This document shows positions 5,708 through 34,501 of a stretch of 34,501 bases of DNA, one piece after another. Under the pieces are notes generated by a model. The model did not search any database. It was given only the letters and a program-made list of their open reading frames with translations, and had not been told where the DNA came from. Source of the stretch: Methylocystaceae bacterium (lineage in GTDB: Bacteria > Pseudomonadota > Alphaproteobacteria > Rhizobiales > Beijerinckiaceae); NCBI GenBank assembly GCA_009773555.1, contig WSXZ01000042.1:1-34501 (forward strand), in the 5' to 3' direction. How positions within the stretch are numbered: the stretch's first letter is position 1; each line of letters starts with the position of its first letter. Position numbers and translations under genes: made by a program.

Positions 5708-6970
5708 TCAGGAGGCGCGGCGAAACAGCAGCGAGGCGTTCGTGCCGCCAAAGCCGAAGGAATTCGACAAAGCGATATTGATTTCCTTCTCTCGGGCTTT
5801 GTGCGGCACGAGGTCGATCGTCGTTTCGACCGAGGGATTGTCGAGGTTGCGCGTCGGCGGCGCGACATTCGCCTGCATCGCCAGGATCGAATAGATCGCT
5901 TCGACGGCGCCGGCGGCGCCGAGCAGATGGCCAATCGCGGATTTTGTCGATGACATGGCGAGTTTGGGTTCGACGTTGCCCAGAAGACGTTCGACGGCCT
6001 TGAGTTCGATCTCGTCGCCGAGCGGCGTCGACGTGCCATGCGCATTCACGTAATCGATGTCGCTCACGGAAATGCCGGCGCGCTTCAGCGCCGCCTTCAT
6101 GCAGCGATAGGCGCCGTCGCCATCGGGCGCCGGGGCGGTGATGTGGTAGGCGTCGCCCGACATGCCGTAGCCGATAAGTTCGGCGTAGATTTTCGCGCCA
6201 CGCGCCTTGGCGTGCTCATATTCCTCGAGCACGACGCAGCCAGCGCCTTCGCCAAGCACGAAGCCGTCGCGGTCCTTGTCATAGGGCCGGGAGGCGGCTT
6301 CGGGGCGATCGTTGAAGCCGGTCGACAGCGCGCGGCAGGCGGCAAAGCCGGCGACCCCAATGCGATTGACGGGCGATTCGGCGCCGCCGGCGACCATCAC
6401 GTCGGCCTCGCCCACCGCGATGATGCGCCCCGCATCGCCGATGGCGTGCGTGCCGGTGGCGCAGGCCGTCACCACCGCATGATTCGGGCCCTTCAGGCCA
6501 TGCATGATGGAAACATAGCCCGCCACGAGATTGATGATTCGACCAGAGACGAAGAAAGGCGACACGCGCCGCGGTCCCTTTTCCCTCAAGGTGACGGAGG
6601 TTTCGTAAATGCCGCCGAGCCCGCCGATGCCGGAGCCGATCAGAACGCCAGTGGATTCCTGCTTCTCTGGGGTGTCGGCCACCCAACCGGAGTCTTTTAG
6701 CGCCTGCGTCGCGGCGCTCGCGCCATAGATGATGAAATCATCGACCTTGCGCTGCTCTTTGGGATCGAACCAGTCGTCAGGATTGAACGTGCCGTCGGCG
6801 CCGTCGCCGCGCGGCACGACCGCCGCAATCTGACACGCGAGGTCGGACGCCTCGAATGTGTCGATACGTTTGAAGCCGCATTCTCCGGCGGCGAGACGGC
6901 GCCAATTGGTCTCCACGCCGCAGCCCAAAGGAGATACGACGCCAAGACCGGTGACGACCACCCTGCGCAT
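5708..6970 (-). CDS. fabF: Beta-ketoacyl-[acyl-carrier-protein] synthase II
   Basis: FabF condenses malonyl-ACP with acyl-ACP to lengthen the fatty acid chain in the cytosolic type II pathway. All three catalytic residues are visible: Cys170 in the TACATGTHAIGDA segment, His311 in NAHGTSTPLGD, and His348 in SAIGHLLGAAG. The C-terminal NSFGFGGTNASL motif is intact. At 420 residues it has normal length. ATG at 6968-6970 opens with the conserved RRVVVTGLG. The gene follows acpP closely on the same strand, the standard acpP-fabF pair, and precedes mltG, so co-transcription is likely. Confidence 0.97.
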   Translation of the reverse strand: MRRVVVTGLGVVSPLGCGVETNWRRLAAGECGFKRIDTFEASDLACQIAAVVPRGDGADGTFNPDDWFDPKEQRKVDDFIIYGASAATQALKDSGWVADTPEKQESTGVLIGSGIGGLGGIYETSVTLREKGPRRVSPFFVSGRIINLVAGYVSIMHGLKGPNHAVVTACATGTHAIGDAGRIIAVGEADVMVAGGAESPVNRIGVAGFAACRALSTGFNDRPEAASRPYDKDRDGFVLGEGAGCVVLEEYEHAKARGAKIYAELIGYGMSGDAYHITAPAPDGDGAYRCMKAALKRAGISVSDIDYVNAHGTSTPLGDEIELKAVERLLGNVEPKLAMSSTKSAIGHLLGAAGAVEAIYSILAMQANVAPPTRNLDNPSVETTIDLVPHKAREKEINIALSNSFGFGGTNASLLFRRAS

Positions 6971-7061
6971 GGCTCTACTCTCGAACTGTTATGTTGTCGG
7001 AAATGGCGGCGTCGGCGAAGCCTCGCGAGAGGATCCGCCGAGCGCTTGAATCTTCAGTTCG

Positions 7062-7301
7062 TCAGGCGGCTTTCGCCTTTTCGAGGAACTTCACTGCATC
7101 GCCCACAGTGAGAATCGTCTCGGCGGCGTCGTCGGGAATCTCGACGCCGAATTCTTCCTCGAAAGCCATGACGAGTTCGACGGTATCGAGCGAATCGGCT
7201 CCCAGATCGTCGATGAAATTGGCTTTGTCGACGACCTTGTCGGCTTCGACGCCGAGATGCTCGACAACAATCTTTTTCACGCGCTCGGCGACATCGCTCA
7301 T
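7062..7301 (-). CDS. acpP: Acyl carrier protein
   Basis: ACP carries growing acyl chains on a 4'-phosphopantetheine arm. The attachment site is Ser37 in [19 protein letters not shown], the diagnostic motif. The protein has 79 residues and is strongly acidic, as expected. It lies 91 bp upstream of fabF on the same strand. ATG at 7299-7301 follows a purine-rich AAAAGAAG stretch. Supply of this protein is used by fabD, fabG and fabF in the same region. Confidence 0.97.
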
Positions 7302-7599
7302 CTTCTTTTATCCCTGTCTGCGTTTGGCGCCTCACGCGCCGTGTGGCGATTTAGAGCAGGCCTGCTGGCGCGCTCCGTGATCGCCCTTCATCCCTTTAAC
7401 GTGCAATCGCGCGCCGATCGCCCTGATGTGTGCGAGACGCGTTGCGACTTGCTCCACCGGGTTTAAATCGCGGCGACGCCGCCCCTCAGCGGCGAGGTCT
7501 GGTAGCATACTTCCCTGAGCATGGCGAGAGGCGCCCCCGCGTTCTCACGCACGCGGCGAAAGGTGGCCGCAGACGCGTTTTCCAGGCGATTCGCCTCTT
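7302..7599. other. Non-coding gap between fabG and acpP
   Basis: No credible reading frame is seen in this stretch of almost 300 bases. The long gap suggests that acpP, normally among the most strongly expressed genes, has its own promoter here. I could not pick a confident -35/-10 pair. Frames crossing the region are extensions of antisense or out-of-frame reading of fabG. Confidence 0.5.
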
Positions 7600-8337
7600 C
7601 TAGATCATGGCCATGCCGCCGTTGACGTGCAGGGTCTGCCCGGTGACATAGGCCGCCTCGGCGCTGGCCAGATAGACGCAGGCGGCGGCGACGTCGGCGC
7701 CGGTCCCGAGCCTTCCGGCGGGCACCATGCGAAGGATCGCCTCCTTCTGCGCGTCTGTCAGCGCCTCGGTCATAGGGCTTTCGATGAATCCGGGCGCGAC
7801 GCAATTGACGGTCACGCCGCGCGAGGCGACCTCGGCGGCCAGCGACTTCGACATGCCGATCATGCCAGCCTTGGCGGCGGCGTAATTACCTTGCCCCGGA
7901 TTGCCGGTCACGCCGACGACCGAAGTAATCTGGATAATTCGGCCGAAGCGCTTTTTCATCATCCCGCGCAGCGCCGCGCGCGACAGGCGAAAGGCCGACG
8001 TCAGATTGACGTTGATGACGGCGTCCCAGTCCTCGTCCTTGAGGCGCATGAACAACATGTCGCGGGTGATGCCGGCGTTGTTGACGAGAATGTCCAGGCC
8101 GCCCATCGCCGCCTCCGCCGCCGGCACCAGCTTCTCGGTCTCGTCCTTTTGCGAAAGATTGCAGGGCAATATGTGCGTGCGGCCGTTCAATTCGCCGGCA
8201 AGCGCCTCGAGTGCCTCTTTCCTCGTGCCGGAAAGCGCCACGATCGCGCCGGCGGCGTGAAGCGCGCGCGCGATCGCCGCGCCGATTCCACCGCTCGCGC
8301 CCGTGACGAGCGCAGTCTTGCCGTTGAGATCAAACAT
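7600..8337 (-). CDS. fabG: 3-oxoacyl-[acyl-carrier-protein] reductase
   Basis: FabG reduces 3-oxoacyl-ACP to 3-hydroxyacyl-ACP with NADPH in fatty acid elongation. It is a short-chain dehydrogenase of 245 residues with the cofactor motif TGASGGIG at about 12-19, NNAG at 86-89, and the catalytic set Ser139, Tyr152 and Lys156 (NYAAAKAG). The ending, LHVNGGMAMI, is typical of FabG. The start at ATG 8335-8337 is preceded by GAGGGGAAG at good spacing. An upstream in-frame start would add nine unconserved residues. It sits in the fab cluster, separated from fabD only by the beta-barrel gene on the opposite strand. Confidence 0.96.
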   Translation of the reverse strand: MFDLNGKTALVTGASGGIGAAIARALHAAGAIVALSGTRKEALEALAGELNGRTHILPCNLSQKDETEKLVPAAEAAMGGLDILVNNAGITRDMLFMRLKDEDWDAVINVNLTSAFRLSRAALRGMMKKRFGRIIQITSVVGVTGNPGQGNYAAAKAGMIGMSKSLAAEVASRGVTVNCVAPGFIESPMTEALTDAQKEAILRMVPAGRLGTGADVAAACVYLASAEAAYVTGQTLHVNGGMAMI

Positions 8338-8759
8338 GTCTTCCCCTCTCCTCCCTCGCGCCATGGCGTGAGTCTTATAGCTCAGTTCGGGGAGTGGCCT
8401 TTTTTCAGCCGCGGTTCAACTTCAAACGACCGCCTCCACTACGGCGGACGCCACCGACGCCCGATCGGATATTGGGAGAAAGTGGGCGTCAGTTCGGCTT
8501 CGTTTCGCAAGCGACGGATTCGAGACTGATTTGCTCAACAACGCATCGGAATCCGCGTCAACTTTCATTGTGGCGTAACTGCAACAGTCGAAATCTTTTG
8601 GGTCTTTTGGGCCTGATTTTACCTTCTGTTTGTTGTTTCCCGCGAGAAATTTGCGCACAGTCCGCCGTGCTTGGGGGTCAGCGTCCTTGAACGTCCGTAA
8701 GAGTCACGGGACTGACGCGCGCCTATTAATTTAAGTTGGCTCAAATGAAGGATAGAGAG
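8338..8759. other. Divergent intergenic region between fabG and the outer-membrane protein gene
   Basis: This 422-bp region has no convincing gene. It must contain the promoters for fabG (leftward) and the beta-barrel gene (rightward). The right half is visibly less GC-rich, with T-rich runs around 8590-8640 and a TATTAAT at 8724-8730 that could serve as a -10 element, but no matching -35 is clear. A 78-codon minus-strand frame here (8422-8658) shows no family features. Confidence 0.5.
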
Positions 8760-9539
8760 ATGAAGACAGCGATCTCGGCCCTGGCTCTGGCGACGGCGCT
8801 TTTCGCCGGCGCCGCGAACGCCGCCGATCTACCCTCCCACAAGGCTCCTCCGCCGTACATCCCCCCGCCGCCGATCATGACCTGGACCGGGTTCTACGCC
8901 GGTCTTAACCTCGGCGGTGGCTTCTACGCCAGCAATTCCTCCAATCAGGGTTGGAACGGCGGCTGGAACAACGGCAACAACAACACCGGCGGTGTCATCG
9001 GCGGCGGTCAGCTCGGCTATAACTTCCAGGTTACGCCGATGTTCGTCGTCGGCGTCGAGACCGACTTCCAGGGCACCAGCCTTGGTTCGGGCGGCGGCAA
9101 CAACAACAACTGGTGGTTGTTGGGCGGCGGCTTCGGCGGCGGCGGCGCTGGTTCGGCGCGCCTGAACTGGTTCGGCACCGTTCGCGGCCGCGTCGGCATC
9201 ACCCTGCTGAGCCCGCAACTGTTGGTCTACGGCACGGGCGGCTTCGCCTATGGCGAAGTGCAGCGCAACAGCTGGTTCAACCAGAACAGCGCCGTGCAGA
9301 CGGGCTGGACCGCTGGCGGCGGCGCCGAGTGGATGTTCTTCCCGAACTGGTCCGCCAAGGTCGAGTATCTGTATACGCAGATCAGCGGCAGCAACAGCAA
9401 CAACAACTGGCTGTTTGCGTTCAACCCGGGTTGGGGCCTGAACAATGTGAACAACCGCACGCGCTTCCACACGATCCGCGCGGGCATCAACTACCACTTC
9501 AACTTCGGCTCCCCGGCGCCGGTGTTGGCCAAGTACTAA
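8760..9539 (+). CDS. Outer-membrane beta-barrel (porin-like) protein
   Basis: This 259-residue protein has a clear signal peptide of about 22 residues ending ANAAD. A proline-rich linker follows (residues about 25-40), then the TWTGFYAGLNLGGGF opening strand found in the small outer-membrane barrel family of Rhizobiales (Omp25/31-like). The body is rich in Gly, Asn, Trp and Tyr with alternating hydrophobic strands and several NNN runs in predicted loops. The closing strand contains HTIRAGINYHF, followed by an unusual dozen-residue tail. ATG 8760 is chosen because AAGGA lies 7 nt upstream; TTG 8736 and ATG 8745 are weaker. A strong terminator follows. It probably contributes to outer-membrane integrity; no substrate can be inferred. 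Confidence 0.9.
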   Translation: MKTAISALALATALFAGAANAADLPSHKAPPPYIPPPPIMTWTGFYAGLNLGGGFYASNSSNQGWNGGWNNGNNNTGGVIGGGQLGYNFQVTPMFVVGVETDFQGTSLGSGGGNNNNWWLLGGGFGGGGAGSARLNWFGTVRGRVGITLLSPQLLVYGTGGFAYGEVQRNSWFNQNSAVQTGWTAGGGAEWMFFPNWSAKVEYLYTQISGSNSNNNWLFAFNPGWGLNNVNNRTRFHTIRAGINYHFNFGSPAPVLAKY

Positions 9540-9571
9540 TCCGACGGATCGACCTTACGGTCGAGAGAATG

Positions 9572-9603
9572 GGCCCGGTCCTCGCGACCGGGCCTTTTCT
9601 TTT
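9572..9603 (+). terminator. Rho-independent terminator of the beta-barrel gene
   Basis: A nine-base-pair GC-rich stem (9572-9580 with 9586-9594, loop CTCGC) is followed at once by TTTTCTTTT. It starts 33 bp after the stop codon. This is a textbook intrinsic terminator, consistent with a strongly expressed single-gene unit. Confidence 0.93.
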
Positions 9604-9631
9604 GCGTCTTCCGTCTCTTGTCCGCGTCCCT

Positions 9632-9741
9632 ACAGCAGGTTCCGAAAAAGTTGACAGACTTTTTCGATGCGAATTGCTCCACCATTTTGATTTTGAGCGA
9701 TTCCTTCCCGATCACATGATTCCATGTGATCGGGAAGCGCT
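9632..9741. repeat. Double-hairpin palindromic element between the porin-like gene and fabD
   Basis: Two perfect inverted repeats lie side by side: a 9-bp stem at 9643-9651/9658-9666 with a 6-base loop, and a 15-bp stem at 9704-9718/9723-9737 with a 4-base loop. The element fills the gap between two converging genes. The combination resembles repetitive extragenic palindromes common in Rhizobiales genomes. The second hairpin could also end fabD transcription. Only one copy is in this window, so its repeat nature is inferred. Confidence 0.7.
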
Positions 9742-10689
9742 CTAAGCGAAGGCGCGATAGGCGTCGAAATCCGCGGGCGCGCCCACGGAAACGCCCGCTG
9801 CCTGCGGCGCGATCCGCTTCAAAAGCCCCGCGAGAACCTTGCCCGAGCCGCATTCGACGAACTTCGTCGCGCCGTGACTCGCCATATAGGCCACGCATTC
9901 GCGCCAGCGCACCGCGCCGGTGACCTGCTCGACGAGCAGTCGGCGAATCGTTTCCGGGTCCTGTGTCGGCTCCGCCGTCACATTGGCGACGACCGGAACA
10001 CGCGGGGCGCTGATCGCCGCTCCGGCGAGCGCTTCGCGCATGGCGTCTGCGGCGGGCTGCATCAGCGCACAATGGAAGGGCGCGGAGACCGGCAGCAGCA
10101 GCGCGCGTTTGATTCCCTTCTCCCTGGCGATATCGATCGCCTTGTCGACGGCGGTCTTCGCGCCGGAAATCACCACCTGGCCGCCGCCATTGTCATTGGC
10201 GACCTGGCAGACGCCGTTCGCCGCGGTCGTCGCCTCCTCTGCAACGGCGCGTGCTTGATCGAGATCGGCGCCGAGCAGCGCCGCCATGGCGCCTTCTCCG
10301 ACAGGGACCGCCTTCTGCATGGCGTCGCCGCGAATGCGCAACAGCCGCGCGGTGTCAAAAATCGTCAGCGCGCCCGCCGCCGCAAGAGCGGAATATTCAC
10401 CGAGCGAATGGCCGGCGACGAAGGCCGCGTCGCGCGGAAGTTCAAGGCCGCATTCGGCTTCCAGGGCGCGAATCGTCGCGAGCGAAACCGCCATCAGCGC
10501 CGGCTGGGCGTTGGCGGTGAGCGTCAGCTCGGCTTCAGGACCTTCGAACATCAGTTTCGATAGCGGCTGCGACAGCGCATCGTCGACCTCTGCGAAAACC
10601 GCGCGCGCGGGCTCGAAGGCGTCGAACAGCGCCTTCCCCATGCCGACCGCCTGAGATCCCTGACCGGGAAAAATGAAAGCCTTCTGCAT
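9742..10689 (-). CDS. fabD: Malonyl CoA-acyl carrier protein transacylase
   Basis: FabD moves malonyl from CoA to ACP, feeding fatty acid elongation. The 315-residue protein opens with AFIFPGQGSQAVGMG and carries the catalytic serine Ser95 in AGHSLGEYS. The catalytic His lies in the APFHCALM segment, and a conserved VVANVTAEP stretch follows. ATG at 10687-10689 is placed exactly before the conserved N-terminus, with AGGGACGG upstream; longer frames add unconserved residues. It would normally sit directly before fabG; here the beta-barrel gene and a palindromic element lie between them. Confidence 0.96.
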   Translation of the reverse strand: MQKAFIFPGQGSQAVGMGKALFDAFEPARAVFAEVDDALSQPLSKLMFEGPEAELTLTANAQPALMAVSLATIRALEAECGLELPRDAAFVAGHSLGEYSALAAAGALTIFDTARLLRIRGDAMQKAVPVGEGAMAALLGADLDQARAVAEEATTAANGVCQVANDNGGGQVVISGAKTAVDKAIDIAREKGIKRALLLPVSAPFHCALMQPAADAMREALAGAAISAPRVPVVANVTAEPTQDPETIRRLLVEQVTGAVRWRECVAYMASHGATKFVECGSGKVLAGLLKRIAPQAAGVSVGAPADFDAYRAFA

Positions 10690-28781: not shown

Positions 28782-28836
28782 GCAGCCCTCGTGCTTCGAG
28801 ACGCGCCCTTTTGGCGCTCCTCAGCATGAGGGCTGC
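28782..28836 (-). repeat. Palindromic intergenic repeat, family 2, copy A
   Basis: GCAGCCCTC and GAGGGCTGC close the element. On the minus strand the inside reads CTGAGGAGCGCC...GGCGCGTCTCGAAG, the layout of a well-known Rhizobiales intergenic palindrome. It is in opposite orientation to copy B, 38 bp away. Confidence 0.8.
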
Positions 28837-28873: not shown

Positions 28874-28926
28874 GGCCCCTCATCCTGAGGAGGCCTCGAA
28901 GAGGCCGTCTCGAAGGGCGAGGGGCC
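28874..28926 (+). repeat. Palindromic intergenic repeat, family 2, copy B
   Basis: GGCCCCTC and GAGGGGCC form the outer arms. Inside are CTGAGGAGGCCTC and GAGGCCGTCTCGAAG, matching copy A in organisation. The inverted pair ends just upstream of the riboswitch promoter and probably ends transcripts from the peptidase gene. Confidence 0.8.
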
Positions 28927-28957: not shown

Positions 28958-28987
28958 TTGACCTGCGGCGCGATCCGCTTCTATTTT
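28958..28987 (+). promoter_or_regulatory. Sigma-70-type promoter of the cobalamin-regulated operon
   Basis: TTGACC (28958-28963) and TATTTT (28982-28987) are separated by 18 bases. The predicted start, about 28994, falls at the first base of the riboswitch's outer stem, which supports the assignment. Confidence 0.65.
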
Positions 28988-28993
28988 GCGGCA

Positions 28994-29170
28994 GACGGTT
29001 CCCTTCGGGGATCAAAATGGGAATGCGGTGAGCGCGCAGCTTCGTGCGCAATTCCGCGGCTGCCCCCGCAACTGTAAGCGGCGAGCCGACGACCACTAAG
29101 CCACTGGAGCCATAAGGCTCTGGGAAGGCGGTCCGAGGCGACAACCCGCGAGCCAGGAGACCTGCCGTCG
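28994..29170 (+). ncRNA. Cobalamin (AdoCbl) riboswitch
   Basis: The conserved core elements are in order: GGTTCCC...GGGATCAAAATGGGAA, then CTGCCCCCGCAACTGTAAGC, then the B12 box GCCACTG, GGGAAGGCGG, and CCGCGAGCCAGGAGACCTGCC. The outer stem pairs bases near 28994-28999 (GACGG) with CCGTC near 29165-29169. It lies about 125 bp before a TonB-dependent receptor gene. Binding of B12 should reduce expression of that receptor and probably the two genes behind it. Confidence 0.96.
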
Positions 29171-29293
29171 CTTCGTGGTCACGCGCGAAAGCGTCGGGCG
29201 GGGTGCACCGATGCGGCCGAAGCCCTGCGCCTTTAGCGGCGTGTGGCGGAGACCTTTCGCAGTGACGGCCCACGTCTCGCTGCGAGTCCAGCT

Positions 29294-31341
29294 ATGCCTT
29301 CCCACTTTTTTACGACCGCCTTGCGCGGCGCGTTTGTGCTGTCTTTATCCCTTCCCACTTCCGTCGCTTTCGCCCAGCAATCCTTGCCCGTCATCGAGGT
29401 CGGCCCGTTAAGTCCGGCGCAGCCAGGCTCGCCCGGCGCTGACGTTGAGGACCAAACCGTCGTCACGCCGACGCGCGTCGAGCAGCCGGCATCGAGCAGC
29501 GGCGCTTCGGTCAGCGTCATTCATGCGCGTGACATCCAGAAGCGCGGATCGCTCGGCTTCAACGACGTTCTGCGCGGGGGCCTGGCGCGCAGACCTCCGT
29601 CGCTTTGCGCGGCTCGACGCCCGGCCAGACGCTGGTGCTGATCGACGGCATTCGCATTGGCGATCCGACAAGCACGGACGGTTCGGTCGATTTCGGTCGG
29701 CTGCTTCCGACCGACATCGAGCGGATCGAAGTGCTGCGCGGTCCGCAGTCGGCGCTTTATGGCTCGGACGCGATGGGCGGCGTGATCAATATCATCACGC
29801 GCCGCGGCAAGGGCGGCCCGCAAGGCTGGCTGATGTCGGAAGGCGGCTCCTATGGAACGTCGTCGTCGCGCGCGTCGATCTCCGGCGCCGACGGACAGGG
29901 TTCCTACGCGCTGTCGATCTCCGGCCTGCATGCCGATGGCTTCCCGCGCTACGGCTATCGTCCGCAGCGTCCCATCTTCATCGGTGATCAGACGACGCCG
30001 CTGCCGCCGCTCCCCGCCAATGATCCGACGAACACTGTCGGCGTCACCGGGCGCATCGGCCATGACTTCACCGAAGATGCGCGAATCGAGGCGGGCATCG
30101 CCGGTTACGACAGCGCCATTCGCTACGACAATCCTTACGCCTTCAATCCTTTAAGCGTTTTCGATCCCTTCAATCATCAGCATGCGACATTCATGCAGGG
30201 CTATGTGCGGCTCGGCGCCGACATGTTCGACAAGAAGCTGCGCAACAGGCTGACGCTTTACGCCAATCGCGGCAATCGCGACGTCTGGTCGACGGAAGCC
30301 TGTTTCGACATGCTGACCTTCATGTCGCGGAATTGCCGCTTCGGCTATCTCGGCGGGCGCAGGGGCGTCGAATATCAAAGCGATATCGCGCTGGGGCCGC
30401 TGGGTCTTGCGACCATTGGTTCGCGCGTCGAGACTGAGACGGCGCAAACGTCGAGAGAAGCCTGGATCGTCGATAATTACGCGCCGACGCGCGCTGTCCA
30501 GACGACATGGTCCGGCTACGCGCAGCATCAGTTCACTTTGTTCGACCGGCTCGACATTTCTTATGGCGGGCGCGCCGACGCGGTGAGCAAGAACCAAACT
30601 TTCCTCACTTGGCGGACGATGGCGAATTTCCGCATCGACGAGATTGGCATGCGCCTGCGCGCCTCCGCTGCAACCGGCGCCAAGACCGCATCGCTCTTCC
30701 AGAGGTTTTCCGAATATGGCGATCCGGCGCTCGCGCCCGAACGCGTGCTCGGCTTCGACGCCGGCATCGATCAGAGCTTTTTTGGCGGTCTTGCCACCGC
30801 TTCCGTCTCCGTCTTCGCCAATCGCTACACGAATCTCGTGCAGTTCGGGAAGGCCGAGAGTTGCACGGCGACGCAGATCTTCGGCTGCTATTTCAGCGTC
30901 GGGCGCGCGGATACGCGCGGCGTCGAATTCTCGGGCGAAGCGAGTCTCGTTCCTGGCGTCTTGCACGCGCGGGGAAGCTACACGTTCCTCGCCGCGCGCA
31001 ATCTCGATGACGACGAGAACAGCATCTACGCTGGACGCACGCTGCTGCGCCGGCCGCGTCACAAGGGCATGTGGTCGGTGATTTATACGGGACTGCCGGG
31101 TCTTGAACTCGAAGCGCGGGCGAACATCGTCGGCGCCGCGCATGACGTGGACTTCATCTTCAACAAACGCGTGATGCTCGCGCCCTATGTGCGGCTCGAT
31201 CTCTTCGCGAATTACAAGCTGACAGACTCGCTGACGCTGCATGGTCGCATCGAGAATGTGGGCAATGCGCTTTACGAGGAAGTCTACAACTACTCGACGA
31301 CGGCGCGCGCCTTCTATGGCGGCGTGAAATACGCCTGGTGA
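29294..31341 (+). pseudogene. btuB: TonB-dependent cobalamin receptor gene (BtuB-like) with frameshifting deletion
   Basis: This is an outer-membrane receptor that would import cobalamin using TonB energy. A signal peptide (MPSHFFTTALRG...SVAFAQQ) and TonB-box/plug start (VVTPTRVEQPASSSGASVSVIHARDI) are followed by SLGFNDVLRG, where the frame breaks at about 29576-29580. The second frame resumes at GPGAQTSVALRGSTPGQTLVLIDG and runs intact through the plug (EVLRGPQSALYGSDAMGGVINIITRRG) and the 22-strand barrel to the C-terminal Trp. Family members have about ten residues at the break, so roughly 30 nt appear missing. Both halves are otherwise well conserved. ATG 29294 is preferred over the 29243 start because it opens the signal peptide. 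The riboswitch upstream supports a B12 role. Confidence 0.88.
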
Positions 31342-31344
31342 GAA

Positions 31345-32013
31345 ATGAACGGCAGGGAGATCGACATGGAAATCAACGCAGACCTAACGCCAAGCACAGC
31401 GCAAAGCATCGCGCCAGGCATAACGCCAGGCACCGCGCCAGGCGCCGCGTCACGACGCATCATTGAACCCGACGGCGCGGCGCTCGACGTCTTCTCGCTG
31501 CCGCTCGATACGGCGAGTCTCGAAGAACTGTTTCGCGACCTTTTCGAACATCACTGGCGCGAAATCGTCTTCGGGCCGATCATTCAAGGCGCGGCGTGGG
31601 AGATCCACGCCGACCGTCCGCCAACGCGCATCAGGCTGCTCGACGGCTATCTCACCGTCGCCTTCGGCGTCACGCATTTTCATGTCTGCATCGGCGAGAA
31701 TAGGGGATCGCGCGCTCGGCCGACGTCTCCCGAACTTGCAAAACTCAGGCGCACATCGCGCGCCGAACTCTATCGCCGGCGAAACACGAGTTGCGTGCCG
31801 ATGTCGTGGGGACTGCAATTGTTCAACGGCGCCGGCGAACAGCAGATCACCGTGCTGCTGCCTAATCCCTTCCTCGACGCGGTGACCGACAAGGTTCTCA
31901 AAGAACCGGATTGGTCGCGTCTCGCGCTGTGGGACAAATTGCGCGCGCGCTGGTTCGGCCTGCACGAACCCGATCCCATCGATCGTTCAGCTGGGCGGTC
32001 GCGCCGCGACTGA
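31345..32013 (+). CDS. Conserved hypothetical protein in the cobalamin-regulated operon
   Basis: I do not recognise a named function. The protein has up to 222 residues (215 if ATG 31366, which has a better GGGAG site, is used). Residues about 15-36 carry short PG-containing repeats (IAPGITPGTAPGA), probably disordered. The core (about 45-205) has a helical stretch LEELFRDLFEHHWREIVFGPIIQGAAWEIH, a strand with THFHVCIGENRGS (His-x-His-x-Cys, a possible metal site), then SWGLQLFNGAGEQQITVLLPNPFLD and a basic tail. There is no signal peptide or membrane helix, so it is cytoplasmic. Its start lies three bases after the receptor stop, so it is translated from the same transcript. A role in B12 handling is inferred from position only. 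Confidence 0.72.
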   Translation: MNGREIDMEINADLTPSTAQSIAPGITPGTAPGAASRRIIEPDGAALDVFSLPLDTASLEELFRDLFEHHWREIVFGPIIQGAAWEIHADRPPTRIRLLDGYLTVAFGVTHFHVCIGENRGSRARPTSPELAKLRRTSRAELYRRRNTSCVPMSWGLQLFNGAGEQQITVLLPNPFLDAVTDKVLKEPDWSRLALWDKLRARWFGLHEPDPIDRSAGRSRRD

Positions 32014-32068
32014 CGCGCCGCGCTTTTGAATTCGACTTCCCCTCTGTTCACTTGAAAGGAGAAACATC

Positions 32069-32623
32069 ATGTCGATTATGTCTGCCACTCTTCCGACGAC
32101 AAACCGCCGCGCGCTCTGGGCCGCGACTTTCATCGCCGCGAGCGTCATTCTCAGCTTCGGTTGGTCGTGCGCCTTGCCGCTCGCCGGCTTCGCCGCCGTT
32201 GCGGCGCTCACCAGCGCGCGTCGCGAGGCCCTGCTGCTGACGGGCGTAGTCTGGTTCGCCAATCAGGCCGTGGGTTTTCTTTTCCTGCATTATCCGACGG
32301 ACGCCATGACGCTGTTTTGGGGCGGCGCGCTCGGCGTCATCGCTTTGCTGTCGTGTGAAAGCGCCGGCCTTCTCGCGCGCCGCTTTCCTGGTTTCGCCGG
32401 CGGTGTCGCCGCTTTCCTTGCGGCGTTCGTCGTCTATGAGAGCCTGATTCTGGCGGTCACGGCGGCGACAGGCCCTGGCGTCGATCATTTCACCGCGCCG
32501 GTCGTGACGCGGCTCTTTTTGATCAATCTCGGCGCCTTTGTCGCGCTGTTGATGTTGAAGGCCGCAGGCGCCGCCGTCGCCAACCGCGATGCGACGAAGG
32601 CCTTCGCCTCGCGCCCGATCTAG
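32069..32623 (+). CDS. Six-helix membrane protein, candidate cobalamin uptake component
   Basis: This 184-residue, very hydrophobic protein has about six predicted helices: roughly 16-33, 34-50, 54-74, 80-97, 105-131 and 145-168. Cys residues at 34 (GWSCALPL) and 96 (LLSCESAG), and a central VWFANQAVGFLFLHYPTDA loop, are the notable features. ATG 32069 follows AAAGGAG. Six helices and about 185 residues are the size and topology of ECF-type substrate-binding (S) subunits. The solitary cobalamin subunit BtuM uses a conserved Cys to bind cobalt. I cannot show homology from sequence alone. Location behind a cobalamin riboswitch and a BtuB-like receptor makes B12 transport the best guess. Confidence 0.7.
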   Translation: MSIMSATLPTTNRRALWAATFIAASVILSFGWSCALPLAGFAAVAALTSARREALLLTGVVWFANQAVGFLFLHYPTDAMTLFWGGALGVIALLSCESAGLLARRFPGFAGGVAAFLAAFVVYESLILAVTAATGPGVDHFTAPVVTRLFLINLGAFVALLMLKAAGAAVANRDATKAFASRPI

Positions 32624-32757
32624 GGGGCGAGGGAGCGTCGACAAACAAAGGGGAGGCCGCGGCCCGACGCGGATCTTCGTCGGGCCGTGTTCTTGCGGCG
32701 TGTCGATATAGCGCCGATTGAGGCGACTTAGACGGCGCTGACTCGCGAAAATTCTGC

Positions 32758-33723
32758 TTAGTGAATATGCGCCTTGGCGCCAGCGCCGGCGTTCACATCA
32801 TTGCCGCTGTCGCGGCGGCAGGCCATTCGCACGCGTTCCCGCAGCCACATATGCGCGTGATCCTTTTCGTGGCGCGGATGCCAAAGCATCATCAACTCGT
32901 AGCGCGGCAGGTCGATCGGGATCGGTAGGATTTTGAGCGGCGCCAGCTGTACGAACTGCTCGGCCATCCTCTGCGGCAGACAGAGCATGAGGTCGGTCTT
33001 CTCGAGAATCCAGGGCGTCGTCAAGAAGTTCGGCAGGACAAGAAATACGTTTCTACGTAGTCCCAGCTTCGCGAGACTGTCATCGATCAGACCCGTCCCT
33101 GCTTCCCGCCAGCTGATCAGCACATGCTTGCATTCCAGAAATTGCGCCAGACTGATGTCATCGCCCGGGACTGCGGCGTTGGATTTTCTTGTGAGGCAAA
33201 CAATGCTCTCGCCCATCAACGCCTGCGAGCAGACATGCGGCGCGCCGCCGAAGATTGCGTCGAAGCCGATCGCCAGATCGATATTGTCTTTCTCGAGCAC
33301 GATGTGGGGCGGCCCGGTTATCGGCTGCCGAATATGCACCTCGATATGCGGGGCGATGCGGATCATCGACTCGGCAAGCGTCGGCAACAGGGCGAAGCCG
33401 ACATAGTCGCTTGTGGAGATCACGAAGCGTCGTCGGCTGGTCGCGGGATCAAATTCCGGCGGTGGTTTGACGATCCTTTCGATCTCCCGAAGCACGGCCG
33501 CCGTTGGCTCCAGTAACGCAAGCGCGCGCGCCGTAGGGACCAAACCCGATGCGGACTTCACCAGTATCGGATCGTCGAGCTGGTCGCGCAGCCTGCGCAG
33601 AATATGGCTCATGGCGGGCTGGCTTAGACATAGCTTTTCCGCGGCGCGCGACACGTTCTTCTCTTCGAGAAGCGCCTTCAACGCCAGCAACAGATTGAGG
33701 TCGAAAGACTTGAGGTTGACCAT
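32758..33723 (-). CDS. LysR-family transcriptional regulator
   Basis: This 321-residue protein has the N-terminal winged helix-turn-helix (FDLNLLLALKALLEEKNVSRAAEKLCLSQPAMSHILRRLRDQL, about 5-50). A linker and the effector-binding domain follow (about 95-300, RRRFVISTSDYVGFALLPTLAE onward). The wording is like the NodD/NahR branch, which often responds to aromatic or phenolic compounds, but the effector and targets are unknown. ATG 33721-33723 fits the family start. It is divergent from the methyltransferase gene, 250 bp away, so that gene is a possible target. The C-terminus ends with an unusual GNDVNAGAGAKAHIH stretch. Confidence 0.92.
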   Translation of the reverse strand: MVNLKSFDLNLLLALKALLEEKNVSRAAEKLCLSQPAMSHILRRLRDQLDDPILVKSASGLVPTARALALLEPTAAVLREIERIVKPPPEFDPATSRRRFVISTSDYVGFALLPTLAESMIRIAPHIEVHIRQPITGPPHIVLEKDNIDLAIGFDAIFGGAPHVCSQALMGESIVCLTRKSNAAVPGDDISLAQFLECKHVLISWREAGTGLIDDSLAKLGLRRNVFLVLPNFLTTPWILEKTDLMLCLPQRMAEQFVQLAPLKILPIPIDLPRYELMMLWHPRHEKDHAHMWLRERVRMACRRDSGNDVNAGAGAKAHIH

Positions 33724-33900
33724 CCTGTCGCTGCCTCTTGCGAATTGAGTCTGCTGTTCCGAACGCGTCGACGCAGCACGTCTAGGGGTTTAGTTCCCCG
33801 AATGAGTTCATAAGATTTTCGAATTTTACCGCGTCGGCGACAATCGATAAAGCTTCCGGCGGCTTGGGCCGGAACAAGATCCAAAAAGAGTGTCGTCCGC

Positions 33901-33921
33901 GAAGCGTCCGAGCGACGCTTC
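33901..33921 (+). other. Small inverted repeat upstream of the methyltransferase gene
   Basis: A perfect 8-bp stem (GAAGCGTC/GACGCTTC) with a 5-base loop lies in the LysR-methyltransferase divergent gap. It could be a leader hairpin or an operator. No T-run follows. Confidence 0.4.
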
Positions 33922-33973
33922 CGCGACGTCGGGCGAGCGGCGCAAGCGTCGAGGAAAGCCGAGGAGGACCGCC

Positions 33974-34501
33974 ATGTCCATCAATGTGCCTGCAGACCGT
34001 CCGCCGATCGATCCGCATCCGCTCAGCCCCTATGTCGCGTGGGCGGGGAATCGAAACCGTGATCCCATTCTCAGCATGTTCAGAGCGATCTTTCCGAACA
34101 GCGGCAATGTGCTGGAACTTGCGAGCGGCGCCGGCAACCACATCAACTATTTCGCGCCGCATTTCCCGACTCTGTCGTTTCAGCCCTCCGACTATGACGT
34201 CGAAGTGTTCGATTCGATCAAGAAGAAGCGCGACGAAGCAGGCGGCAAGAATATCTTCGATCCCATCAAAATCGATCTGACTGAGCCCCAGACCTGGCCC
34301 AGCGCCAGCGATCGGCTTTACGACGGCATTTTCGTCGTGAACCTCTTCCAGGTCGCGCCCGTCTCGATCTGCGACGGCATCGCTCAAGTCGCCGACCGCG
34401 TGTTGACCAAGGATGGCTTTGTCGCGATCTACGGGCCCTTCAAGGTTGACGGCAGTTATACGACCGAATCAAACGCCGCTTTCGATCAGGAGATCCTCGC
34501 G
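33974..34501 (+). CDS. DUF938-family SAM-dependent methyltransferase, 5' part
   Basis: The gene opens at ATG 33974 after a GAGGAGG site and runs off the window end, giving 176 residues of a protein normally near 200-220. Visible motifs are LSPYVAWAGNRNRDPILSMF near the N-terminus and the SAM-binding loop VLELASGAGNHINYFAPHFP. QPSDYD (with the Asp for the ribose), an IDLTEP segment and GIFVVNLFQVAP follow. This matches the DUF938/METTL26-like group, whose substrates are unknown. It is divergent from the LysR gene. The overlapping minus-strand frame at 33782-34387 is antisense noise. Confidence 0.85.
   Translation, partial: MSINVPADRPPIDPHPLSPYVAWAGNRNRDPILSMFRAIFPNSGNVLELASGAGNHINYFAPHFPTLSFQPSDYDVEVFDSIKKKRDEAGGKNIFDPIKIDLTEPQTWPSASDRLYDGIFVVNLFQVAPVSICDGIAQVADRVLTKDGFVAIYGPFKVDGSYTTESNAAFDQEILA

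Follow-up and report, generated by a model that had tools for sequence, protein, structure and literature searches.

A cobalamin-riboswitch operon of a Methylocystaceae bacterium with a candidate corrinoid importer resembling solo S-components and a DUF7676 protein of predicted heme-chaperone-like fold

We analysed a 34,501-nt stretch of DNA (hereafter the window) from contig WSXZ01000042.1 of a Methylocystaceae bacterium (assembly GCA_009773555.1), in which a cobalamin riboswitch precedes, in this order and all on the plus strand, the gene for a BtuB-type TonB receptor, an open reading frame (ORF) of 222 aa and an ORF of 184 aa (Table 1). With a probability of about 0.6, we read this as a B12-repressed corrinoid salvage operon, in which BtuB would act together with a BtuM-like solo S-component importer (the 184-aa protein, hereafter the membrane protein) and a corrinoid-handling chaperone (the 222-aa protein, a member of the family DUF7676). 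An initial annotation of the window had suggested an inner-membrane route for B12 that does not use the standard ATP-binding cassette (ABC) importer. This suggestion gained support from the absence of FecCD and Peripla_BP_2 matches in the host genome, from the co-occurrence of the membrane protein with cobalamin riboswitches in relatives, from its position in a slot that an importer occupies elsewhere, and from its S-component-like predicted fold. The riboswitch, the gene order, the conservation of the genes and the lack of matches to the BtuC, BtuF and EcfT families were observed directly; from these observations and two predicted folds we infer the transport and chaperone roles.

The riboswitch scored 125.2 bits, above its gathering score of 31.5, and covered the full length of the model, which places it in RF00174 and agrees with its initial description as complete. 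The three genes run in the same direction with gaps of 3 bp (receptor to DUF7676 gene) and 55 bp (DUF7676 gene to membrane-protein gene), as first described, and a terminator scan found no site in either gap that would part the receptor from the genes downstream. No btuCDF genes follow the operon, the next gene being that of a LysR regulator (32758-33723, minus strand).

We then considered the inner-membrane importers encoded elsewhere in the host genome, which spans 4.0 Mb in 144 contigs, is 99% complete and has its closest named relatives in Methylocystis. There were 0 matches to the FecCD permease and 0 to Peripla_BP_2, each of which was detected in 13 of 14 control genomes, and 0 to CbiQ/EcfT, detected in 10 of the 14. 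Therefore the host genome has neither BtuCDF, which we would recognize by FecCD together with Peripla_BP_2, nor an energy-coupling factor (ECF) module, and the complete btuCDF system elsewhere in the genome that would have spoken against the initial suggestion was not seen. The genome does carry a second cobalamin riboswitch (contig C114, 106712-106906, minus strand; our locus L056), which heads cbtA, cobW, cobN, cbiC and tetrapyrrole methylase genes, a cluster from which the strain seems capable of B12 synthesis. CobN was matched in two ORFs of this locus (8455..9783 and 6387..8582), which may reflect a second frame break.

The membrane protein, initially described as having six helices, was predicted to have six in an AlphaFold2 (AF2) model built from 27 sequences. 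In searches of Pfam and NCBIfam, none of the 27 members had a match with an E-value below 0.011, so a match to an unrelated family was not seen; we dismissed as chance the matches to Bax1-I (E 0.011), EbrA (E 0.012) and HgcAB_like (E 0.14), each found in one member of 27, and to DUF6596 (E 0.023), found in two. The initial annotation had called both small genes uncharacterised; the 222-aa protein belongs to a family listed in Pfam, DUF7676 (PF24724). Single-sequence and profile searches of Protein Data Bank (PDB) sequences with both proteins returned only a chance antibody match (E 1.3). In the unbiased set of 27 membrane proteins, the start Met, C34, A39, Q66, G69, Y75, P76, W84, F120 and N153 are invariant, with C34 lying in loop 1, between helices 1 and 2, and Y75-P76 in loop 3, which reads LHYPTD in the window protein. 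In the latter, basic residues occur at the two termini and near loops 2 and 4, with none around loops 1, 3 and 5, a positive-inside pattern by which loops 1, 3 and 5 should face the periplasm. Among the best 50 of 105 Foldseek rows for the model, five had a template modelling (TM) score above 0.5, and all five were S-components (four TmRibU chains and 3p5n, 0.52-0.62), while PanT reached 0.43. On these weak scores, the predicted fold is ECF S-component-like.

To place the membrane protein in its genomic company, we used two sets: a family set of 149 genomes, 25 of which carry the protein in 27 places (26 of them outside the window), and a named set of 55 loci from a collection scan, in which matches to a riboswitch motif were counted when they lay up to 4.5 kb upstream in the same orientation. 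Same-strand cobalamin riboswitches precede the membrane-protein gene in 18 of 26 family loci and 33 of 55 named loci, so that the co-occurrence in relatives, which the initial annotation had proposed as a check, was borne out; the two sets overlap partly and the loci are related, so the counts are not independent. Among the 33 named loci with a riboswitch, 19 have the order riboswitch, receptor, DUF7676, membrane protein, nine lack DUF7676, and in five (L084, L086, L088, L108, L110) the membrane-protein gene comes immediately after the riboswitch, without an intervening receptor. Four further named loci have the order cobT, cobS, membrane protein (L097, L098, L101, L107; three Hyphomicrobium and one metagenome bin). 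The 22 named loci without a same-strand upstream riboswitch also include two with a receptor and no motif match, two short contigs with DUF7676 in front, two with a riboswitch-receptor unit on the other strand, and L092, where pieces of a receptor and of DUF7676 and a further copy of the membrane-protein gene lie close by. Of the remaining eight family loci, L044 is a short contig, and a riboswitch-receptor unit on the other strand starts beside the membrane protein in L047 and lies further off in L046. The neighbours of members without a riboswitch (patatin, DnaJ, chorismate synthase, a DsbH-type thioredoxin) showed no shared theme.

Five named loci, in Zavarzinia, Parvibaculum, Rhodobiaceae, Ferrovibrio and Methylobacterium oxalidis, have a Peripla_BP_2 (BtuF-like) gene immediately after that of the membrane protein; the last of these is among the 22 loci without a same-strand upstream riboswitch. 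We found no FecCD match within 4.5 kb of these five pairs, the distance that the search covered. It is possible that such a pair forms an importer composed of a binding protein and a solo S-component.

The protein encoded between receptor and membrane protein scored 230.6 bits against a curated cut-off of 27 and thus belongs to DUF7676. Its AF2 model (28 sequences, predicted local distance difference test (pLDDT) 84.1) had as its best 22 Foldseek rows 16 heme-chaperone-type chains (HutX, ChuX, HemS, PhuS, ChuS) and six chains of 3na2 (Leptospirillum) and 2ph0 (Erwinia), structural-genomics proteins whose titles state no function; five rows reached E 0.001. The comparison with HutX 5exv gave E 4.9e-4, a probability of 1.00 and a TM-score of 0.54 by target and 0.41 by query, and that with ChuX gave 0.57 by target and 0.43 by query, so that on the model DUF7676 is predicted to have the HutX/ChuX/HemS heme-chaperone fold. 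By hhalign, DUF7676 matched 12 HutX-like proteins of the same order with a score of 40.1 (Prob 71.9), compared with at most 22.4 in 40 column-shuffled controls; a positive control (HutX-like against HemS) gave 93.8 and a negative control (the membrane family) 10 to 12. None of the Pfam heme-chaperone families was among the matches of the 28 DUF7676 members at E up to 1, and HemS (PF05171) had 0 matches in the host genome. In both DUF7676 alignments, H111, H113 and N161 never vary, and R144 and C115 are invariant or nearly so. We found no description of the DUF7676 name, nor of such a corrinoid-handling protein, in open-licence papers.

DUF7676 therefore has both likenesses to and differences from the heme chaperones: the predicted fold, a weak profile match that exceeds shuffled controls and a place in a TonB-linked tetrapyrrole uptake operon are shared, whereas DUF7676 is undetected by the Pfam models of that family, has its own invariant HxH plus Cys motif and stands under B12 riboswitch control. 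CblC has a fold of the flavin reductase type, unlike DUF7676. By analogy, the task proposed for DUF7676, to receive imported cobalamin and remove its upper ligand, would resemble that of CblC, which is cited as a decyanating B12 enzyme in the BtuM study (PMC6072759).

DUF7676 was found in 13 of the 149 family genomes, all 13 lying within the 25 carriers of the membrane protein, and in 3 of 398 genomes sampled across the phylum. Among 72,556 plasmid records, 14 held a DUF7676 relative, and we read eight of these 14 loci. In five of the eight (Azospirillum, Diaphorobacter, Paracoccus, Trichormus and Nostoc), the genes for a TonB receptor, DUF7676, a binding protein, a FecCD permease and an ATPase stand in a row, the binding protein of Paracoccus having been found by tblastn. 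A Methylocella tundrae plasmid has receptor, DUF7676 and membrane protein, as does Methylocystis; on the Rhodococcus plasmid, the neighbours of DUF7676 are two FecCD clusters and a protein whose end is of the FhuF 2Fe-2S type, and on the Streptomyces plasmid a 2Fe-2S-binding protein is the sole neighbour of this sort. The DUF7676 proteins of Trichormus and Nostoc carry a fused 2Fe-2S ferredoxin domain of the thioredoxin-like type, which scored just under the Pfam cut-off. A cobalamin riboswitch is present in seven of the eight loci (all except Streptomyces), and from these and the genomic loci DUF7676 thus travels with B12 riboswitches in four bacterial groups: alphaproteobacteria, betaproteobacteria, cyanobacteria and actinobacteria. 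Since the receptor and DUF7676 are followed elsewhere by a BtuFCD-like ABC system and here by the membrane protein, the latter holds the importer's slot. It therefore resembles the BtuCDF importer in its operon place behind TonB receptor and DUF7676, and differs in that this operon has no permease, binding protein or ATPase and the genome no FecCD or Peripla_BP_2 match. As separate observations on the Rhodococcus locus (L132:5516-7371), DUF7676 overlaps the 2Fe-2S protein of FhuF type, a second 2Fe-2S protein, which is thioredoxin-like, lies opposite it, and each of the two FecCD clusters between which it lies has a cobalamin riboswitch.

Table 1. Positions of the features discussed, in the window unless a locus handle is given.
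Feature	Position	Strand	Evidence
Cobalamin riboswitch aptamer RF00174	28979..29184	+	cmscan: E 2.8e-31, 125.2 bits over the whole model (1-189)
btuB-like receptor, first piece (signal peptide, TonB box region, plug start)	29294..29577	+	ORF 29243..29641; TIGR01779 weak, E 7e-7
31-bp deletion point	29577..29578	+	pairwise alignments with Methylocystis relatives, 4/4
btuB-like receptor, second piece (rest of plug, beta-barrel)	29605..31341	+	Pfam Plug and TonB_dep_Rec_b-barrel
DUF7676 protein, 222 aa, predicted HutX/ChuX/HemS-like fold	31345..32013	+	PF24724, E 9.3e-69
DUF7676 codons 111 to 115: invariant H111 and H113, nearly invariant C115	31675..31689	+	two alignments
184-aa membrane protein with six predicted helices; candidate solo S-component-like importer of corrinoids	32069..32623	+	ORF; AF2 pLDDT 89.7
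Cys34 codon (sole invariant cysteine; loop 1, predicted to be periplasmic)	32168..32170	+	27/27 in alignment
Strong hairpin, possible transcript end	32658..32689	+	stretch 32648-32700 folds at -30.7 kcal/mol
Membrane protein and Peripla_BP_2 pairs	L086:8028-9334, L108:7896-9256, L110:7965-9337, L105:8016-9163, L094:7341-8682		

The receptor was initially described as a BtuB-like protein, and its type stood up to analysis, but it is not encoded in one open frame. A 31-bp deletion after about base 29577 shifts the frame within the plug domain, the second frame being open from 29533 to 31341, and the start of the receptor is probably at 29294. The best NCBIfam match of the 578-aa second piece was TIGR01779 (TonB-B12), at 179.4 bits and below the whole-protein cut-off of 599.7, and its best PDB sequence matches were BtuB entries; an intact BtuB, with plug and barrel in one frame, was not found here. 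All ten relatives that we read have an intact receptor, and their proteins read through the place of the deletion. The break may be either a young loss or an assembly error in the 144-contig draft. A search of the host genome for a second close BtuB returned none, the ten further matches (up to 33 bits) looking like other TonB receptors. On one view, the operon is decaying and without function in this strain, where the deletion in the plug has cost the receptor its frame, no second close BtuB was found and the cobW-cobN-cbiC operon for de novo B12 synthesis is present. We regard this as rather unlikely: the DUF7676 and membrane-protein genes are open and conserved, and the deletion may be an artefact of assembly, the receptor being intact in relatives.

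A different cargo was also weighed, namely that the membrane protein brings in cobalt ions or a small precursor of B12 (for example alpha-ribazole or a benzimidazole), and that BtuB and DUF7676 use another inner-membrane importer. Cobalamin riboswitches also control cobalt transporters, and some members of the family stand behind cobT-cobS, the genes of lower-ligand assembly. Across 57 aligned members, residue 153 is acidic in L097, L098, L104, L107 and L111, that is, in five of six cobS/cobT-linked loci and in none of 51 others, with Glu in place of Asn in L097, L098 and L107; the exception is L101, which is cobS/cobT-linked with a non-acidic residue. It is possible that the acidic-153 members form a subfamily with another ligand, and kinship may explain the pattern. 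A metal-ion carrier is expected to have invariant His, Asp or Glu, and the membrane protein has none of these. In Sinorhizobium meliloti, according to PMC7689651, a BtuF-like ABC system, CbtJKL, imports cobalt. The host genome, however, already has cbtA, and both the slot behind BtuB and DUF7676, filled elsewhere by a binding protein, permease and ATPase, and the pairing with BtuF-like proteins point to a corrinoid, such that import of cobalt or a precursor appears unlikely.

The closest known system is BtuM of Thiobacillus denitrificans. According to PMC6072759, BtuM is a solo S-component-like protein that can support B12 uptake without an ECF module; a cysteine binds cobalt and cyanide is removed; the one invariant cysteine is Cys80, in loop 3; and the gene neighbour is btuR. 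The membrane protein shares with BtuM, as described there, a size of about 20 kDa, six helices, a host without an ECF module (0 CbiQ/EcfT), a B12 gene neighbourhood and a conserved cysteine on the predicted periplasmic side; on its weak Foldseek scores, it may also share the S-component-like fold. These likenesses would allow an ordinary explanation, in which a BtuM-family transporter stands beside an annotated DUF, and predicted BtuM, or the annotation name BtuN, covers the case already. Two genome papers, on Methylobacterium and Rhodocyclus, name BtuN beside BtuB; we could not tie this label to a sequence, and the membrane protein may be what it denotes. In the membrane protein, however, the invariant cysteine lies in loop 1, with no conserved cysteine in loop 3, and the gene is found with those of BtuB and DUF7676, with cobT-cobS, or with that of a BtuF-like protein. 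Furthermore, BtuM was not among the best 50 of 105 Foldseek rows, and the 27-member profile found no BtuM chain among PDB chain sequences at E up to 10, a set that presumably includes one, given the published structure. We did not file the membrane protein as BtuM because the defining cysteine lies elsewhere and the sequence search gave no link, and we hold the ordinary explanation to be improbable. Compared with ECF S-components such as RibU and PanT, which the membrane protein resembles in its Foldseek rows, it differs by a host without EcfT, weak E-values, and a B12-type riboswitch and partners.

Several findings weigh against the proposed salvage operon. In this strain, btuB is broken and no second close BtuB was found. 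The Foldseek E-values of the membrane protein were weak (0.67 for RibU, or worse, with none at 0.001) and its first row by E-value was a CcmABCD chain with a TM-score of 0.30; for DUF7676, TM-scores by query were only 0.32-0.43 (up to 0.57 by target), and hhalign gave no match to full-length HemS (Prob 7.3). Among the family loci, L050, L051, L052 and L054 have no riboswitch or B12-linked neighbour in the sequence covered, and L055, which likewise showed no riboswitch there, has only ABC genes (those of FecCD and an ATPase, ahead of the membrane protein); among the named loci, ten of 55 have no B12-linked neighbour in the sequence covered, with less than 3.4 kb upstream covered in four of these, and one of the ten, L091, has metE close by. 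ABC genes share a cluster with the membrane protein in L079 and lie near it in L111, L049, L055 and L092, and 16 of the family's 25 carriers have some FecCD gene, which may serve siderophores. From the FecCD genes of carriers and the ABC genes at some loci, the membrane protein is thus not a simple replacement of an ABC importer. We also tried to tie the absence of FecCD to the membrane protein, and the result was not convincing: FecCD is missing from 9 of 25 carriers and from 28 of 124 genomes without the membrane protein, no clear excess. Finally, the host genome has three SbmA_BacA matches, and SbmA/BacA-like proteins are another conceivable B12 importer, as mycobacterial BacA transports cobalamin according to PMC10960864. 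Entry of the corrinoid through such a protein, with the membrane protein as an accessory (a corrinoid sensor or a reductase anchor), would suit the loci with ABC genes in or near the cluster (L079, L111, L049, L092, L055), but it is very unlikely, given that none of the three matches lies on either riboswitch-bearing contig and that the membrane-protein gene stands directly behind a riboswitch in five named loci.

As observations in their own right, L079 and L111 have the membrane protein together with binding-protein, FecCD and ATPase genes in one B12 neighbourhood, which is hard to fit to simple replacement. L092, a 10-kb contig labelled Gammaproteobacteria, holds the membrane-protein gene twice, along with DUF7676, pieces of a receptor and, on the opposite strand, an ABC cluster, and L080, from a bin labelled Verrucomicrobiota, has receptor, DUF7676 and membrane protein, through either a binning error or a transfer.

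The initial annotation had also placed a promoter before the riboswitch. The promoter-like site at 28958-28987 is a doubtful promoter for the riboswitch, and we rejected it as the main operon promoter, because its -10 box ends at 28987, the first base of stem P1, and a transcript would begin within P1, truncating the aptamer. An internal promoter-like site at 32052-32079 has its 3′ end within the membrane-protein gene (start 32069) and is therefore unable to serve that gene as annotated. Folding of 29160-29310 gave no signal of a switch structure (z -0.73). Behind the operon, the stretch 32648-32700, which contains the hairpin in Table 1, had a z of -2.5, with 3 of 200 shuffles equally good; the hairpin has no clear T run and was not listed by the terminator scan. 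Upstream of the riboswitch, a palindrome-like repeat, CTCATSCTGAGG, occurs as inverted copies at 28819-28830 and 28879-28890, two in the window against 0.33 expected, and 4 of 100 shuffles reached as many. A gene of the methyltransferase-like family DUF938 (33890-34501, plus strand) runs off the contig end.

Cobalamin riboswitches repress when B12 is plentiful, and BtuB carries corrinoids to the periplasm. In the corrinoid salvage operon that we propose, scarcity of adenosylcobalamin would, judging by the aptamer, lead the riboswitch to permit production of BtuB, DUF7676 and the membrane protein. BtuB, by what is known of its family and with the gene broken in this strain, would then deliver the corrinoid to the periplasm, from where the membrane protein, as a single S-component-like subunit without an ECF module, would move it over the inner membrane in the manner of BtuM, its invariant loop-1 cysteine possibly lying near the cobalt. 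In the cytoplasm, DUF7676 may take up the corrinoid and either pass it on or strip its upper ligand, working in some lineages with an iron-sulphur partner; the 2Fe-2S partners suggest a reductive step. DUF7676 would thus take in B12 uptake the place that HutX, ChuX and HemS have in heme uptake.

More tentatively, as a reading that we would not yet favour over its alternatives, the operon may be the B12 counterpart of a heme uptake operon. The solo S-component-like family, distinct from BtuM and with its cysteine in loop 1, would act alone or, where no permease gene lies close by (Zavarzinia, Parvibaculum and others), receive corrinoids from a BtuF-like protein; it would pass them to DUF7676, whose heme-chaperone fold would have been adapted to corrinoids and which would reduce or de-ligand cobalt with a 2Fe-2S partner. 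Solo S-component importers are a known kind, while DUF7676 is possibly a new kind of partner. For methanotrophs and other alphaproteobacteria, the membrane family offers a specific candidate that can be put to the test, and DUF7676, listed in Pfam as a family of unknown function, gains a proposed function from its riboswitch, receptor and importer neighbours and its predicted heme-chaperone fold.

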